Source: Immundisolibacter sp.
Lineage (GTDB): Bacteria > Pseudomonadota > Gammaproteobacteria > Immundisolibacterales > Immundisolibacteraceae
DNA length: 63,666 nucleotides
Direction: 5' to 3'
Assembly (NCBI RefSeq): GCF_014359565.1
Contig: NZ_JACIZD010000013.1
Span: 1-63,666 of the forward strand
In this document: positions 41,014-48,054 of the stretch, piece by piece
Layout: every line of letters begins with the position of its first letter
How positions within the stretch are numbered: the first letter of the stretch is position 1
The notes under the pieces: model-generated
The model's input: the letters and a program-made list of their open reading frames with translations, nothing else
Database searches by the model: none
What the model was told of the DNA's origin: nothing
Program-made: the position numbers and the translations under genes

Positions 41014-43080
41014 TCAGCCCTCGGGCGAGGGCCGGGCGCCCTGCGCCCACCAGCGCCGGTGCAGGTCGAGCAGCAGCCGCGGCTGGCGCAGCAGCAGCTT
41101 CTGCTCGCGCGGCGCGAGCGCCGCGGGACCGGCGCGCAGCACCTTCGCAACCAACTCGTGGCGACGGGCGAGAATCGCCGCTGACAGGCGCTCGCCGCGC
41201 GCCAGCCCCTGCATGACCACATGCAGGGCGTTGACCGCCGGGTCTTCCACCACCGCGGCAAACCCACCCTGCCGGGCCGGCGCCCGTTCGGCCTCCACCA
41301 GATACCGTGCGAAGTCCTGCAGCACCGGCGCGGGGGCCGTCTCCGGCGGGGTCAGAAACAGGCCCCGCTCACGCGCGCTGCGCCCGACGCTGCTGCGACT
41401 GCTCAGCACCGATACCGGAATCGCCAGCAACAGCGCCGCCACCACCGGCGTCAGCCACCAGAAAAACGCCGGGTTCAGCCAGAACACGCCAAGGCCCCAC
41501 ACGGCCGCAAACAGCGTTGCAAGGCCGTGGTAGCGCAGCGCCTCGGCCCAGCCGGTGCTGGCATCGCCGCGCGACTGGGCGCCCCAGCCCACCTGCTGAC
41601 CAAGCAGCGTGAACAGCACGAACTTGGAGTGGAACACCGCCTGCACCGGCGCCAGCAGGGCCGACATCAGGGTTTCCGTGATGGCACTGGCCAGCAGCCG
41701 CAGCACGCCGCCGAACTGCCCGGCCCGCCGCTGCACGATGATCAGCAACACCGCCAGGATCTTGGGCGCGAACAGGATCACCGTCGTGGCCACGATCAGC
41801 AGCAGCGCCCACTGCGGCTGCCACACCGGCCACTGCGGAAACAGCGCCGGGCCGGTCGGGAAGTAATCCGGGGGCTTGAGCGCCTGCCACACCGCCTGGC
41901 CGCTGGACAGCAACAGGAACACCAGCCACAGCAGCGCCGACACGTAGGACATGATGCCGTTGATGAACAGCGCCCGATGGGCCGGAAACAGGCCTTCGGC
42001 AAACAGCAGGCGCAGGTGCTGCAGGTTGCCCTGGCACCAGCGGCGGTCGCGCTTCATGGCGTCCAGCAGGGTCGGCGGCAGTTCCTCGTAGCTGCCCGGC
42101 AGGTCGTGCGCCAGCCAGATGGTCCAGCCGCCGCCGCGCAGCAGGGCCGATTCGACGAAGTCGTGACTGAGGATGTCGCCGCCCAGCGGCGGGCGGCCCG
42201 GCAGGCGCGGCAGGCCGCAGTGCTGGCGGAAGGCCTCGATGCGGATGATGGCGTTGTGGCCCCAGAACGGCCCGTCGCCCAGCTGCCAGAAATGCAGGCC
42301 GGCGGCGAAGATCGGCCCGTAGGCGTGGCCGGTGAACTGCAGCATGCGCGCGAACAGCGTGTGCTGGCCCATCGGCTGTGGCAGGGTCTGGATCAGGCCC
42401 ACGCGCGGGCTGGCTTGCATCATGTTGACCAGCTTCACCAGCGCCTCGCCGCTCATCACGCTGTCGGCGTCGAACACCACCATGTAGCGGTAGTGCGCGC
42501 CCCAGCGGCGCACGAAATCGGCCACGTTGCCGCTCTTGCGCTTCAGGTTGACCTGCCGGTTGCGGTAAAAGAGCCGCCCGCTGGCGCCCATCTCCCGGCA
42601 CAGCGTAGCCCAGGCGACCTCCTCATCGACCCAGCGGCCGGGGTCCTGGGTGTCGCTGAGGATGAAAAAATCGAAGCGGGCGATCTGACCGGTGGCAGCC
42701 AGGGACTCGTAGGTCGCGCGCAGGCCGGCGCCGACACGCCGCATGTCCTCGGCGAAAACCGGCAGCAGCACCGCCGTGCGGGCATCCGGGTCGATCGGCC
42801 GCATGGAACCAGTGGCGCGCACCAGGTTGTAGCGGTCGCGGCGCAGCAGCAGGCTGAAGAAACCGATCGCGGAGGTCCACAGGCCGATCGAAATCCAGCC
42901 AAACAGCACGCCGAACACGATGATGATGGCCAGTTCAAGTCCAGTGCGCCCGCCGTAGGGCAACACCTCGCGCATGAACTGGCTGGCGATGGTGGCCGGG
43001 ATCAGCACCAGGCCCAGCAGCAGCATCCGTCGCCAAGTGGCGGCGAAGGCGTGCGGCTTGTCGAAATCGGCGTGGCTCAT
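41014..43080 (-). CDS. opgH: Glucan biosynthesis glucosyltransferase OpgH (without its N-terminal domain)
   Basis: A 688-residue GT2 enzyme of osmoregulated periplasmic glucan synthesis. Membrane helices flank the catalytic domain, which has SDTQDPGRW, VFDADSVMSG, the segment after LHFWQLGDGPFWGHN, and DRRWCQGNL. E. coli OpgH has 847 residues, with about 135 cytosolic residues before the first helix; here the protein begins only about 20 residues before that helix. The missing part appears to be the separate ORF upstream, which overlaps it by ATGA. The C-terminal tail aligns with OpgH. Confidence 0.93.
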   Translation of the reverse strand: MSHADFDKPHAFAATWRRMLLLGLVLIPATIASQFMREVLPYGGRTGLELAIIIVFGVLFGWISIGLWTSAIGFFSLLLRRDRYNLVRATGSMRPIDPDARTAVLLPVFAEDMRRVGAGLRATYESLAATGQIARFDFFILSDTQDPGRWVDEEVAWATLCREMGASGRLFYRNRQVNLKRKSGNVADFVRRWGAHYRYMVVFDADSVMSGEALVKLVNMMQASPRVGLIQTLPQPMGQHTLFARMLQFTGHAYGPIFAAGLHFWQLGDGPFWGHNAIIRIEAFRQHCGLPRLPGRPPLGGDILSHDFVESALLRGGGWTIWLAHDLPGSYEELPPTLLDAMKRDRRWCQGNLQHLRLLFAEGLFPAHRALFINGIMSYVSALLWLVFLLLSSGQAVWQALKPPDYFPTGPALFPQWPVWQPQWALLLIVATTVILFAPKILAVLLIIVQRRAGQFGGVLRLLASAITETLMSALLAPVQAVFHSKFVLFTLLGQQVGWGAQSRGDASTGWAEALRYHGLATLFAAVWGLGVFWLNPAFFWWLTPVVAALLLAIPVSVLSSRSSVGRSARERGLFLTPPETAPAPVLQDFARYLVEAERAPARQGGFAAVVEDPAVNALHVVMQGLARGERLSAAILARRHELVAKVLRAGPAALAPREQKLLLRQPRLLLDLHRRWWAQGARPSPEG

Positions 43081-43484
43081 GGGCGTTCCACGTGGCCGAT
43101 GAGCAGTTGCAGGCGGCGCAGCACCCGCGCCGCCGGCCGGTACAGGAACATCCCCAGCAGTTGCCGCACGAAGCCGCGGTGCAGGGTGTGCGCCGTCATG
43201 TGCTGGCGGCGCAGCGGCAGCAGGGCCGGCATCAGCGCCCGCTGCGGTGCCGGCACCGGCAGGCCATAGGCACGCTGCACCGCCGCGCGCAGCCAGGCGC
43301 AGTCCGCATCGGCCGGGCCGGCTGCCTGATCGGCGCCGCACATGGCCTGTGCCAGCCGCGCCTGCAGCTGGGCAACGGTCAGCACGTCGAGGTCGGAAAG
43401 ACCCACAAGCAGGCGCTGCGCCTGCTCACCGGTGATGCCCAAACGCGCCAGATAAGCCGGCCCCCCCGCGGCGGAATCGGTCAC
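43077..43484 (-). CDS. Probable detached N-terminal domain of OpgH
   Basis: A 135-residue protein starting at GTG 43484 with GAGG 9 bp upstream, 4 bp after the opgG stop. Its opening (PAYLARLGITGEQAQRLL) resembles, from memory, the YLARL-x-EQ opening of Pseudomonas OpgH. Its basic end (LHRGFVRQLLGMFLYRPAARVL) resembles the linker before the first OpgH membrane helix. Its size equals the part missing from the downstream OpgH. The E. coli domain is the part that contacts FtsZ. Either the gene is genuinely split, or a frameshift separates the two halves. Confidence 0.6.
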   Translation of the reverse strand: MTDSAAGGPAYLARLGITGEQAQRLLVGLSDLDVLTVAQLQARLAQAMCGADQAAGPADADCAWLRAAVQRAYGLPVPAPQRALMPALLPLRRQHMTAHTLHRGFVRQLLGMFLYRPAARVLRRLQLLIGHVERP

Positions 43485-43488
43485 CGAA

Positions 43489-45018
43489 TCATTCCTCACC
43501 GAGGTGATGCAGCCAGGTTTCGCTGCGCGTGCCGGTGTCCGTGAGCAGGCCGGCACGGATGTTCAGCGGCGCCCCATCGTCGTGCTCCACCGGCAGCGTC
43601 AACCGCCAGCCATCGCCCAGCGCCTGCAGGCCGGGCTCGCCACCCTTGCCGCCTTGAACGCTGATGTGCGGCTTCGGCGGCACGCTGCCGGCGCCAAGCG
43701 ATGCAAAATCAATCTGGTAGGTGCTGACGCCGTTCTGGCGAGCGACGCGCGTGGCGAGCACCCGGCCGGCTTGTTCACCCGGCTCCCGATCACCCCACCG
43801 CAGGCGGTAGCGCAGCGACAGGTGATCGCCGCCCCGCACCTTGGCCTGCGGCACGAAATAGGCCAGCACGTTCTGGTTCAAGCCGTCGCGCACCGGCAGT
43901 TCCAGCAGCTCCAGCCGGCCGGCGCCGAAACCCTTTTGGGGTTCGAGCACCACGCTCGGCTGGGCTTCGAAGGCCGCGTCCAGATCCTGGTAATGCCCGA
44001 AATCCCGGTCCCGTTGCAGCAGGCCATAGACCGTAGCCGGCGGCACCGGCAGTGACTGCTGCGCCAGCCGCGGCGGATTGGCCAGCGGACGCCACAGACG
44101 CTCCTTGCCGGCATGCACCAGCAATCCGTCTGAGCTGTGCACCTCCGGCCGGTAATCGTCCACCGGCGGGCCGTTTTCGCCGTACCAGAACATGCTCGAC
44201 AGCGGCCCCAGGCCCAGCCGGCCGACCGCATCGCGGAAAAACAGCTCGCTGTCGACCCGCGTGACAAGCTGTGTGCCGGCCGTCAGCTCGATCCGGTAGG
44301 CACCGCTGACACGCGGCGAGTCGAGCAAGGCATAGACGGTCAACCGTTTGGCGCCCGCCGCGGGCCGCGCCAGCCAGAAATCGGTAAAGACCGGGAACTC
44401 CTCGCCACTGGGCAGGCCGGTGTCGATGGCCAGCGCCCGCGACCGCACGCCGCCGGGCAGCAGCGGCGCCCCGCCGCGCATGAAGCTACCGCCCAGGAAT
44501 TCCAGCACCGGCTGCCAGCTGTCCTTGTTGCGCGCGTAGACGGTGAAACCGGCGTAACCCAGATCGCCCGGCACCCGCTGGCGATCCACCCCCGGCCCGT
44601 AGAAGAACTGCCCCGGCGCAAAAGCCAGGAGCTTGGCTTGCCCGGATTCGATCTGGCTGATCGCGACCGGCTGGCGATAGATGCTGCCCGGATGATGGAA
44701 GCGGACCGAGAACGGCAAGTCCTGGCCCGCCCACAGGGCCACGTTCGGGTCGAAGCGAATGTCCTGCCAGGCGCGATAATCAAGCTGCAGCAGCCAGTCG
44801 GGCAGCGGCGCCGGCATGGGCTGGTAGGGCGCCGCGGCACGGTCGCGCGCTTTCTGCACCACCTGCGACCAGTCGAACTCGGCGCCCTGCGCCGCCGCCA
44901 GCAGCAGCCAGCAGCCCAGCCCCACCAGCCATCGCCGACCGGTCCCCGGCGCAGCAGAAGCCCCAGGCGGCTGGGGCCGTCGCGATGGCCGCAGGTAATC
45001 AGCGAGGCGGATCGACAT
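43489..45018 (-). CDS. opgG: Periplasmic glucan biosynthesis protein OpgG/OpgD family, paralogue 1
   Basis: A 509-residue exported protein. A long N-terminus with a hydrophobic export segment (WLVGLGCWLLLAAAQG, about residues 29-44) precedes the OpgG beta-sandwich. The segments LSSMFWYGENG, YRPEVHSSDGLL, LLQRDRDFGHYQDLD and EPQKGFGAGRLELLELP match active family members (now GH186 beta-1,2-glucanases, from memory). The start overlaps paralogue 2 by 20 nt. It directly precedes the split opgH. Confidence 0.9.
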   Translation of the reverse strand: MSIRLADYLRPSRRPQPPGASAAPGTGRRWLVGLGCWLLLAAAQGAEFDWSQVVQKARDRAAAPYQPMPAPLPDWLLQLDYRAWQDIRFDPNVALWAGQDLPFSVRFHHPGSIYRQPVAISQIESGQAKLLAFAPGQFFYGPGVDRQRVPGDLGYAGFTVYARNKDSWQPVLEFLGGSFMRGGAPLLPGGVRSRALAIDTGLPSGEEFPVFTDFWLARPAAGAKRLTVYALLDSPRVSGAYRIELTAGTQLVTRVDSELFFRDAVGRLGLGPLSSMFWYGENGPPVDDYRPEVHSSDGLLVHAGKERLWRPLANPPRLAQQSLPVPPATVYGLLQRDRDFGHYQDLDAAFEAQPSVVLEPQKGFGAGRLELLELPVRDGLNQNVLAYFVPQAKVRGGDHLSLRYRLRWGDREPGEQAGRVLATRVARQNGVSTYQIDFASLGAGSVPPKPHISVQGGKGGEPGLQALGDGWRLTLPVEHDDGAPLNIRAGLLTDTGTRSETWLHHLGEE

Positions 45019-46483
45019 AGTCCCAGGTTTCGGTCAGAGGCTGGTCGGCGTGCTGCAAATAGGCGCGCAGTTGCAGCGGGGCGTCGGTGTCACGGTTGAA
45101 CTCGAACAGCAGACGCCAGCCACCCGTATGCGGGTTCGCCACCACTTGCTGGCGCTGCAGGCTGCCGCCGCGGCCGATGTCGATGACCGCCACCGGCGCC
45201 GCGCCGGGCGGCAGCCCCTGCAGGGCCGGGCCGACGAAATCCACCGCATAGCGGCGGCTGCCATTGCTCCCTGCGGCACCGCTGCGGGTGGCGATCACCC
45301 AGCCGCCGGCACGCGGCAGCGACGCGTCCGTCGACCAGTGGACGGCGTAGCCGAGCTCCATCCCCGCGCCGGGTGCCGGCTGCTGGTCTGGCACGAATCC
45401 GACCTGCACGTTGCGCACAGCGGCGCTGCCCGCCGGAGCTTCGAGCAGGCGCAGCTGGCCAGCGCCCCAGTCACCGCCCGGCACCAGCCACAGGTCCGGC
45501 TGGCGGGGATGCGGCGCGTCCGGCTCGTAGTGGCTGGCGTCGCGATCACGCTGCAACAGCCCGAACCCACGTGGCGTGTTGACCAGAAAACTATAGGCGC
45601 TCGGCTGGGGTGGATTGTCGAGCGGCCGCCACAACCAGCCGCCAGCGGCGGTGTGGATGGCCAGGCCGTCCACGCTGTGCACCTCGGCCTGCAGCGGCAA
45701 CACACGCCCCGGTCGATGCTCCCCCTGCACGAAACTGCCCGCCAGCGGCGCCAGCAGCAGTTTGCCGGCGCCCTCGCGCGGATACAGCGCCACCTGCACG
45801 TCGGCGCGACTGGCAACGCCCGGCACCAGGTCGATCTGGAACGCAGCCGCCAACGCCGGCGAATCGGCCAGCGCATACAGCCGCAGCTGACGGGCGCCGG
45901 CCGCCGGGCGCACCAGCCAGAACTCGCGAAACGGCACCGGCTGCGCCCGACCGTCGTTATCGATCACCCCGACCGCGAGTGCGGCCGCACCGAACAGCGA
46001 ACCGGCGCCGACCAGCTGCCAGGCATCGCCCTCGAAGCGCGCCAGATCCTCGCGTTTGCCATCCCCGGGGAGCGGATACAGCAGGCGAAAGCCGCAAAAA
46101 CCCGTCGCGGCAGGCCCCGCCTCCGGCAGGCCGGCGGCCGACCAGTCGAACAGTTCCGGCCGGTAATCGAAGCGCTCGATACCGCTGGCCTGGATGGAAC
46201 TGAACAGCGTCGGCGCGCAGCCGGCGCGCGGCGCCAGCGGCAGCGGCACGAAGCGCGACGCCATCGACCACGGCGCGTAGCGGACCTTGAGCGGCGCCGC
46301 ATCCCGGCGCGCGGGATCGATCTGCGCCAGGACAGCGTCGGCCTCCGGCGGTGGGCTGTACGCAGCCGCCGCCTGCTGCCGGGCGCGCGCTTTCAGGGCG
46401 TCGAAATCAAAGTCCTTGCCAGTCGCGCTGGCGGCGCCGGCGCACACGACCAGCAGCAAGCCCAGGCTGCGCCAGTTCAGCAT
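44999..46483 (-). CDS. Divergent OpgG/OpgD paralogue 2
   Basis: A 494-residue exported protein (signal LGLLLVVCAGAASA-TG) with the OpgG fold. It departs from its neighbours at otherwise conserved places. SMFWYGEN is replaced by GSFVQGEH, YRPEVH by LQAEVH, and HYQDLD by HYEPDA. RGFGLLQRDRD remains. It may have lost hydrolase activity or changed specificity. It overlaps opgD by a few bases and paralogue 1 by 20 nt, so all three are made from one message. Confidence 0.85.
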   Translation of the reverse strand: MLNWRSLGLLLVVCAGAASATGKDFDFDALKARARQQAAAAYSPPPEADAVLAQIDPARRDAAPLKVRYAPWSMASRFVPLPLAPRAGCAPTLFSSIQASGIERFDYRPELFDWSAAGLPEAGPAATGFCGFRLLYPLPGDGKREDLARFEGDAWQLVGAGSLFGAAALAVGVIDNDGRAQPVPFREFWLVRPAAGARQLRLYALADSPALAAAFQIDLVPGVASRADVQVALYPREGAGKLLLAPLAGSFVQGEHRPGRVLPLQAEVHSVDGLAIHTAAGGWLWRPLDNPPQPSAYSFLVNTPRGFGLLQRDRDASHYEPDAPHPRQPDLWLVPGGDWGAGQLRLLEAPAGSAAVRNVQVGFVPDQQPAPGAGMELGYAVHWSTDASLPRAGGWVIATRSGAAGSNGSRRYAVDFVGPALQGLPPGAAPVAVIDIGRGGSLQRQQVVANPHTGGWRLLFEFNRDTDAPLQLRAYLQHADQPLTETWDYVDPPR

Positions 46484-48054
46484 GCGGCTGCCGCGATGTA
46501 CTGGTAGAGCCAGGTTTCGGTCAGAGTCTTGTCGCCCAGGCGCACGTAGCAGCGCAGCTCCACCGGCTCGGCGCCTTCCACGTACAGGTCAAACGAGGCC
46601 CGCCAGCGATCGGTACCGACCACCTTGAGCACGTGCGCGTTGTCCACTCGTCCGCGCGAGGCGGTCACCATCGGCGTCAGGTCGAAGCGCTGCTCGAGTG
46701 CCGCCAGCGGCCCGCCGGAGAAATCGATGACGAACTTCATCCCCGGAGCCTGCTGTGCGGCCTGCTGGGCGGTGATGCCGGGAATGCCGTGGCGACCGCG
46801 CCAGGTGTGGCGCACACGCCCGACCTCGGGGATGAACGGCTCGTCATCACCCCAGTACAGGCGGTAGTCGAAGGTCCAGGCGCCGCCACTGCGCACCGGC
46901 TCCTTGGGCGTCCAGTAGGCGACCAGGTTGTCGTGGATCTCGTCGTCGGTCGGGATTTCGACCAGCTGCACCGCGCCCTCGCCCCAGTCACCCAGTGGCT
47001 GCACCCACACCGAGGGACGACGGTCGTAGAAGGCGCCGTCGTCCTGGTAGTTCTCGAAATTGCGATCCCGCTGCGACAGGCCGAAACCGCGCGGGTTGAA
47101 GTCCACGAACGACGAGGTCATCACCACTGGCGGGTTCTCGATCACCCGCCACAGCCGCTCGCCGGCCCCGGTCCACAGCGCCAGGCCGTCGGAGTCGTGG
47201 ATTTCCGGCCGCCAGTCGGCGCTGCGTCGACGGTTGTTCTCGCCGTACCAGAACATGCTGGTCAGCGGCGCCACGCCCAGACGGCCGATGTCCTGGCGCG
47301 CGAACAGCTCCGCATGCACCTCGGTCAGCACCGGCTTGGCGCGCGTGCACACGAAGCGATACACGCCGGTCAGGCTGGGCCCATCGAGCAGGGCGTACAG
47401 CGTGATGCGGTCCCCGACCGGGCGTTCCAGATAGAAGGCGGTGAAATCCGGAAACTCCTCCGGCTGCGGCATGGCGGTGTCGATGGCGATGCCGCGCGCC
47501 GACAGGCCGTACTGGCCCTGCACGCCGCAGGTGCGGAAATAGGACGCGCCCTGAAACGCCAGCCAGTCGGTCTTGGCCGGCGCCGGGTCCATCACCCGGA
47601 AACCGGCAAAGCCGCCGTGGCCGGCCATTTTCTTCGCCAGTCCCGGCGTGCCGTAGTCGAACAGGTCGGTCGAGAACGGCACCTCGCGCGCCTCGTCACC
47701 CTCCACCAGATGGATGCGCACCGGCTTCTGGGCAAAGCGGTGCGGGTGGAACAGCTGCACGCCGAAGGGCGACGGCGGCTCGTTCCACAGCGTCTGCTCG
47801 GGCTTGAAACGGATTTTCTGGATGGTGTCGAAGTCGATCGTGTACAGCAGCTGGGTATCCGGAATCGTCGGCGCGACATACGGCCGGGCGGCCAGTTGGC
47901 GGGCCTGTTCGCGCAGTGTGTCCATGCTGAACTTGCGCTTTGGCCCCAGGCTTGCGCGGGCCAGCGCATGGGCCGGGTACAGGCCGGCCAGCGCCAGCAG
48001 GCCGCCGGCACTCATGAATTTCAGCAGGTCGCGACGCGTGCTGCGCAGCGGCAT
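46477..48054 (-). CDS. opgD: Tat-exported OpgD-type glucan protein, paralogue 3
   Basis: A 525-residue protein with a twin-arginine signal (STRRDLLKFMSAGGLLALAG), the feature that distinguishes OpgD from Sec-exported OpgG. The family segments LTSMFWYGENNRRRSADWRP, EIHDSDGLAL, GLSQRDRNFENYQDDGAFYD and PLGDWGEGAVQLVEIP are intact. OpgD sets the chain length of periplasmic glucans. It is the first gene of a four- to five-gene operon ending with opgH. Confidence 0.92.
   Translation of the reverse strand: MPLRSTRRDLLKFMSAGGLLALAGLYPAHALARASLGPKRKFSMDTLREQARQLAARPYVAPTIPDTQLLYTIDFDTIQKIRFKPEQTLWNEPPSPFGVQLFHPHRFAQKPVRIHLVEGDEAREVPFSTDLFDYGTPGLAKKMAGHGGFAGFRVMDPAPAKTDWLAFQGASYFRTCGVQGQYGLSARGIAIDTAMPQPEEFPDFTAFYLERPVGDRITLYALLDGPSLTGVYRFVCTRAKPVLTEVHAELFARQDIGRLGVAPLTSMFWYGENNRRRSADWRPEIHDSDGLALWTGAGERLWRVIENPPVVMTSSFVDFNPRGFGLSQRDRNFENYQDDGAFYDRRPSVWVQPLGDWGEGAVQLVEIPTDDEIHDNLVAYWTPKEPVRSGGAWTFDYRLYWGDDEPFIPEVGRVRHTWRGRHGIPGITAQQAAQQAPGMKFVIDFSGGPLAALEQRFDLTPMVTASRGRVDNAHVLKVVGTDRWRASFDLYVEGAEPVELRCYVRLGDKTLTETWLYQYIAAAAC

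Follow-up and report, generated by a model that had tools for sequence, protein, structure and literature searches.

A homologue of the OpgH N-terminal domain encoded by its own small gene ahead of opgH in Immundisolibacter sp.

The opg cluster of Immundisolibacter sp.

The window analysed here, a stretch of 63,666 nucleotides from Immundisolibacter sp. (contig NZ_JACIZD010000013.1), contains a tight opg cluster on the minus strand. It consists of three MdoG-family genes, a small gene in penultimate position and opgH, arranged in this order; neighbouring genes overlap or are a few bases apart. The small gene (43077..43484, minus strand), which occupies the opgI position, encodes 135 amino acids, starts with GTG at 43484 and ends with TGA at 43079-43077. 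Its stop codon overlaps the ATG of opgH at 43080 in an ATGA sequence (43077..43080, minus strand) that is identical in three genomes of the genus. The opgH gene (41014..43080, minus strand) encodes a protein of 688 amino acids, which starts shortly before the first membrane helix and carries a long C-terminal tail; this tail (residues 590-685 of OpgH, encoded by 41026..41313, minus strand) co-occurs with the N-terminal domain treated below. The immediate upstream neighbour of the small gene is an MdoG-family gene (43489..45018, minus strand), whose stop is separated from the start of the small ORF by 4 nt. This gene is overlapped by a second MdoG-family gene (44999..46483, minus strand), which in turn is overlapped by a third one (46477..48054, minus strand), the latter being OpgD-like and showing a weak match to a TAT signal. 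A tandem of three MdoG-family genes is thus present at 43489-48054 within one opg cluster; in E. coli, opgG resides at the opg cluster of that organism and opgD elsewhere.

The preliminary description of this DNA had reported that OpgH is devoid of some 135 residues ahead of its first membrane helix and that a 135-residue ORF lies directly upstream and overlaps opgH by ATGA. The coordinates (43484-43077 and 43080-41014) bear out the overlap, and the shortness of OpgH is evident from its match to the long-form NCBIfam model NF003955 (855 positions), which begins at position 141. OpgH is encoded by a single uninterrupted frame, and its score of 883.9 bits against the NCBIfam MdoH model NF003958 is well above the cut-off (419). 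This model is itself a short form with 704 positions, and the short OpgH is therefore an already known form. The novelty resides in the ORF preceding opgH, for which no match was obtained at E ≤ 1 in Pfam and NCBIfam.

When 56 related genomes were searched for OpgH and for the small ORF, the former was present in seven and the latter in three, the window genome, G001 and G002, which are all three of the genus. In full agreement with the window, the small ORF of both relatives starts with GTG and overlaps opgH by ATGA (87% identity in the single-contig assembly G002, 64% in G001), and the length differences among the three junctions preserve the frame. The proposal to look for the same split in relatives was thus answered positively. 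Point values of dN/dS for the three pairs of small ORFs were 0.37, 0.45 and 0.46, and those for opgH were 0.10 and 0.20. A second match of the small-ORF protein in G001 (E 6.5e-5) lies inside an unrelated frame, presumably for a tRNA-dihydrouridine synthase, and was discarded as a chance match.

Relationship of the small ORF to the OpgH N-terminal domain

An iterated profile search seeded with the N-terminal domain of E. coli OpgH (OpgH-N) alone was performed on 6103 six-frame ORFs from 127 OpgH loci. It took in 75 OpgH frames together with 18 other plus-strand ORFs and not a single minus-strand ORF. Sixteen of the 18 non-OpgH ORFs end near the start of opgH, and the remaining two lie directly downstream of opgH (L070, L071). 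The search was run from the side of the fused proteins because a profile built from the three genus sequences alone included neither a fused OpgH nor any other ORF at E<1e-3. A profile consisting only of fused N-termini (75 rows) reached the ORF in the window with an E value of 0.035 over nearly the full domain length, and a profile from which the genus had been left out matched it with 6e-7 and the ORF of G001 with 4.7e-4. When the 75 fused N-termini were compared with the 5976 non-OpgH ORFs, 16 of the 20 matches at E<1 adjoined opgH on its upstream side, where directly upstream ORFs make up 88 of the 5976 overall (hypergeometric enrichment, 5e-27).

Profile-profile comparison with hhalign, the check suggested for 43077-43484 in the preliminary description, gave the same answer. 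The genus profile aligned to the 75 fused N-termini with E values of 4.3e-7 (local) and 6.8e-8 (global), and the other separate ORFs did so with 2.9e-15 (local), while the reversed controls yielded 0.31 for the genus profile and 0.21. Pairwise identities between the ORF in the window and the remaining sequences of the N-domain alignment are 16-30%, which would not be sufficient on their own to demonstrate homology. As judged from the profiles, the small ORF is a homologue of the OpgH N-terminal domain that is encoded as a gene of its own. Titles and abstract openings in the literature searched contain no description of a separate OpgH N-domain.

Structure prediction is in line with this assignment. 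The AlphaFold model of the small ORF contains helices at residues 8-14, 19-29, 37-49 and 57-73, with block means of pLDDT of 82-89 over residues 11-50, 68-77 over residues 51-80 and only 53-67 from residue 81 to 120. A fused OpgH from Salinisphaera (mean pLDDT 85.2, pTM 0.88) is predicted to form helices at residues 2-17, 22-34, 40-54 and 62-71. Free and fused forms therefore appear to share the same four helices in these single-chain models, which hold no information on contacts. A fold search with the small-ORF model returned no match below an E value of 3.6, and the PDB contained no chain matching OpgH by sequence at E ≤ 0.001.

The predicted helices precede a partial form of a motif. In the fused family, the best-conserved part is RSSMFPDPW, which lies inside residues 83-101 of E. 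coli OpgH (positions taken from PMC3723540 and counted on the E. coli sequence used in the profile search). Residues 85-99 of the small-gene product, MPALLPLRRQHMTAH, encoded by 43188..43232 on the minus strand, align both with the motif PPLxRxSMxP of the fused proteins and with this E. coli segment. Note that the longer consensus PPLxRxSMxPxPW is only partially present in the window ORF, as LPLRRQHM, and that the PW of the E. coli protein is missing, i.e., the motif is kept loosely.

Distribution and history of the separate gene

In an evenly drawn sample of the class comprising 276 genomes, 46 encode OpgH, and their upstream regions were read individually. The domain was assigned as separately encoded in 27 of these genomes, fused in full in seven and fused as the motif only in two; eight genomes are without it and two were not assignable (one contig end and one disrupted). 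Profile support, defined as E ≤ 3.2e-3 in the iterated search or an hhalign probability ≥ 45% against the combined profile, was obtained for 16 of the 27 separate ORFs, and the other 11 were assigned by place, size and motif only (hhalign probability ≤ 28%). Among 79 named loci (80 less L064), a set weighted towards Pseudomonas, we counted seven separate and 68 fused cases, two with the motif only and two cut by contig ends. Forty more loci were picked by hand. A separate ORF was found in all five with a strong C-terminal tail, one locus (L207) has a long ORF in the slot, and the other 34 are without an ORF for a helical domain. The separate layout is thus real and common.

Several individual loci deserve mention. 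The long ORF of L207 was not accepted as an N-domain homologue, as it had no profile support. The same holds true for a hypothetical protein of 129 amino acids on p74 of Leptospira biflexa (L216:3106-3495), whose gene is flanked by an opgD-like gene and mdoH and likewise has an ATGA overlap. In two Synergistaceae MAGs the OpgH-N motif occurs twice, in the upstream ORF and again in an ORF that immediately follows opgH (L070:4583-5098 and L071:4461-5183). In L038 the separate ORF is absent upstream of opgH and another ORF, which we take to encode a PIN-type protein, is located there; the separate ORF is present in L036, which belongs to the same genus.

A tree of 90 OpgH cores was calculated with a quick method and rooted at the short-form clade; 19 of its branches are weak. 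At least six changes between the fused and the separate state are required on this tree, and they can be accommodated by six fusions alone or by 13 fissions alone. With equal costs, the state at the root is tied (6/6), and a fused root becomes slightly cheaper (11 v 12) when fissions are rated twice as cheap as fusions. Since six fusions suffice where thirteen fissions would be needed, the fused form of E. coli is more likely the derived one. This affects the term "split OpgH" used in the preliminary description: profiles and hhalign uphold a separate gene for the N-domain, yet "split" implies a broken gene, and the separate state is common and fusion the cheaper change.

On this basis, three other explanations for the small ORF can be weighed. 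The two parts adjoin with a 4-nt overlap in different frames, as would be expected if one long opgH had been broken by a recent frameshift or by a sequencing or assembly error, the alternative named in the preliminary description. Two further members of the genus, one of them assembled as a single contig, share both the split and the ATGA with the frame preserved, which excludes such an event in this strain for practical purposes; the many other families with a separate ORF next to opgH refute this alternative further. Preservation of ATGA in three genomes could also point to programmed frameshifting, by which both ORFs would be joined and a fused and a short OpgH would be made side by side. 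We regard this as highly improbable. Among 40 separate ORFs, all three frame relations of the small-ORF stop to opgH occur (3/17/20), so that programmed frameshifting is not general; relative to the equivalent of OpgH residue 1, the stops are located between 117 nt ahead of it and 37 nt past it, and inspection by eye revealed no slippery heptamer common to the three junctions of the genus. Finally, the low pairwise identities and the empty search with the three-sequence genus profile would fit an unrelated small gene located at this site by chance. The profile results as compared with their reversed controls, and the same order of helices in the small-ORF and fused models, leave this explanation with little probability.

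Possible role of the separate domain

The N-domain is found almost only with OpgHs bearing the long C-terminal tail. Of 127 scorable rows, 120 are concordant for the two features (78 with both, 42 with neither), and the others have the C-tail only (five) or the N-domain only (two); three further rows were not scorable. An independent-pairs test of this agreement was not significant (median p 1), with few changes (8 and 5). Among the OpgHs lacking the C-tail, 24 of 44 contain the motif MPxQ within the N-terminal stretch of the enzyme itself, as compared with 0.9% in shuffles. The short OpgHs of Caulobacter and many Alphaproteobacteria resemble the OpgH in the window in their catalytic core and in starting shortly before the first membrane helix, but they have neither N-domain nor long C-tail.

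The agreement between N-domain and C-tail, together with the presence of MPxQ in OpgHs without the tail, leads us to propose that the small gene encodes a separate subunit of the OPG synthase, translationally coupled to opgH and docking on the cytoplasmic face of OpgH. We consider this probable. Coupling through the ATGA stop-start overlap would ensure joint production of the two proteins. The small-gene product, with its four-helix domain, extended motif and amphipathic helices, would then dock on OpgH, including the C-terminal tail of the latter, from the cytoplasmic side and would be required for glucan synthesis or tune it. Several fusions may have arisen as both proteins already worked as one, and the inhibition of FtsZ in E. 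coli would represent a function that the docking segment acquired later.

The E. coli domain offers a different possibility. According to PMC3723540, OpgH-N is necessary and sufficient to inhibit division, and residues 83-101 are sufficient though not necessary. Purified OpgH 1-138 acted in that work as an inhibitor of FtsZ assembly in vitro, and fused to thioredoxin it was sufficient in vivo. The window ORF is homologous to this domain by profile, and it too would form four helices, followed by part of the motif, and corresponds to the stretch ahead of the first membrane helix. By analogy, the free protein may possibly act on FtsZ by itself. Its chief role could be that of a freely diffusing FtsZ antagonist, independent of OpgH, which links cell size to UDP-glucose and whose level can vary because it is synthesised separately. 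This we deem rather unlikely: the 4-nt overlap speaks for joint rather than separate expression, the motif region is poorly kept in the window ORF, which lacks the PW of the 83-101 segment, and the gene tracks OpgH and its C-tail. Moreover, Hill et al. describe the OpgH N-domain as well conserved in Enterobacteriales (PMC3723540). In contrast to E. coli OpgH-N, the window ORF is a separate polypeptide, and any action on FtsZ is putative.

A subunit role and a link to division can also be joined in a broader proposal, which we put forward tentatively. OPG synthase may ancestrally have been a two-protein enzyme, consisting of OpgH and a separate OpgI-like cytoplasmic partner docking via one conserved motif. 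The two would have been fused at least six times, in a clade of enterobacteria, pseudomonads and Burkholderiales and independently in Salinisphaera, Mailhella and others. The FtsZ-inhibiting peptide of E. coli would be the docking motif in a second use, and in species with separate genes the partner could dissociate from OpgH and, as a diffusible protein, signal the UDP-glucose status to cell division. In E. coli, control of cell size by OpgH has been attributed to a domain regarded as integral to the enzyme; should this domain be an ancient subunit in its own right, it probably serves glucan synthesis in the first place. Species with the separate layout would then allow partner and enzyme to be deleted singly as natural genes, and an unannotated ORF ahead of many opgH genes would receive a name.

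In addition, such a subunit may tie opgI of Rhodobacter sphaeroides to E. coli OpgH-N. There, opgI is reportedly needed for OPG backbone synthesis, a finding ascribed to Cogez in 2002. The small gene in the window likewise lies between an MdoG-family gene and opgH and so matches the opgI slot, a likeness by position. In the R. sphaeroides opgGIH operon, opgI is placed between opgG and opgH, and complementation of E. coli lacking opgH has been reported for opgI plus opgH (PMC10514313). In Sulfitobacter, a member of the same taxonomic order as R. sphaeroides, comparison of the slot product with the OpgH N-domain profiles revealed no link; unlike the 135-residue ORF in the window, this product comprises 56 amino acids with only the MPxQ motif. 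In one further locus (L055), an MPVQSL motif is found at the C-terminal end of OpgH and not in the N-terminal stretch.
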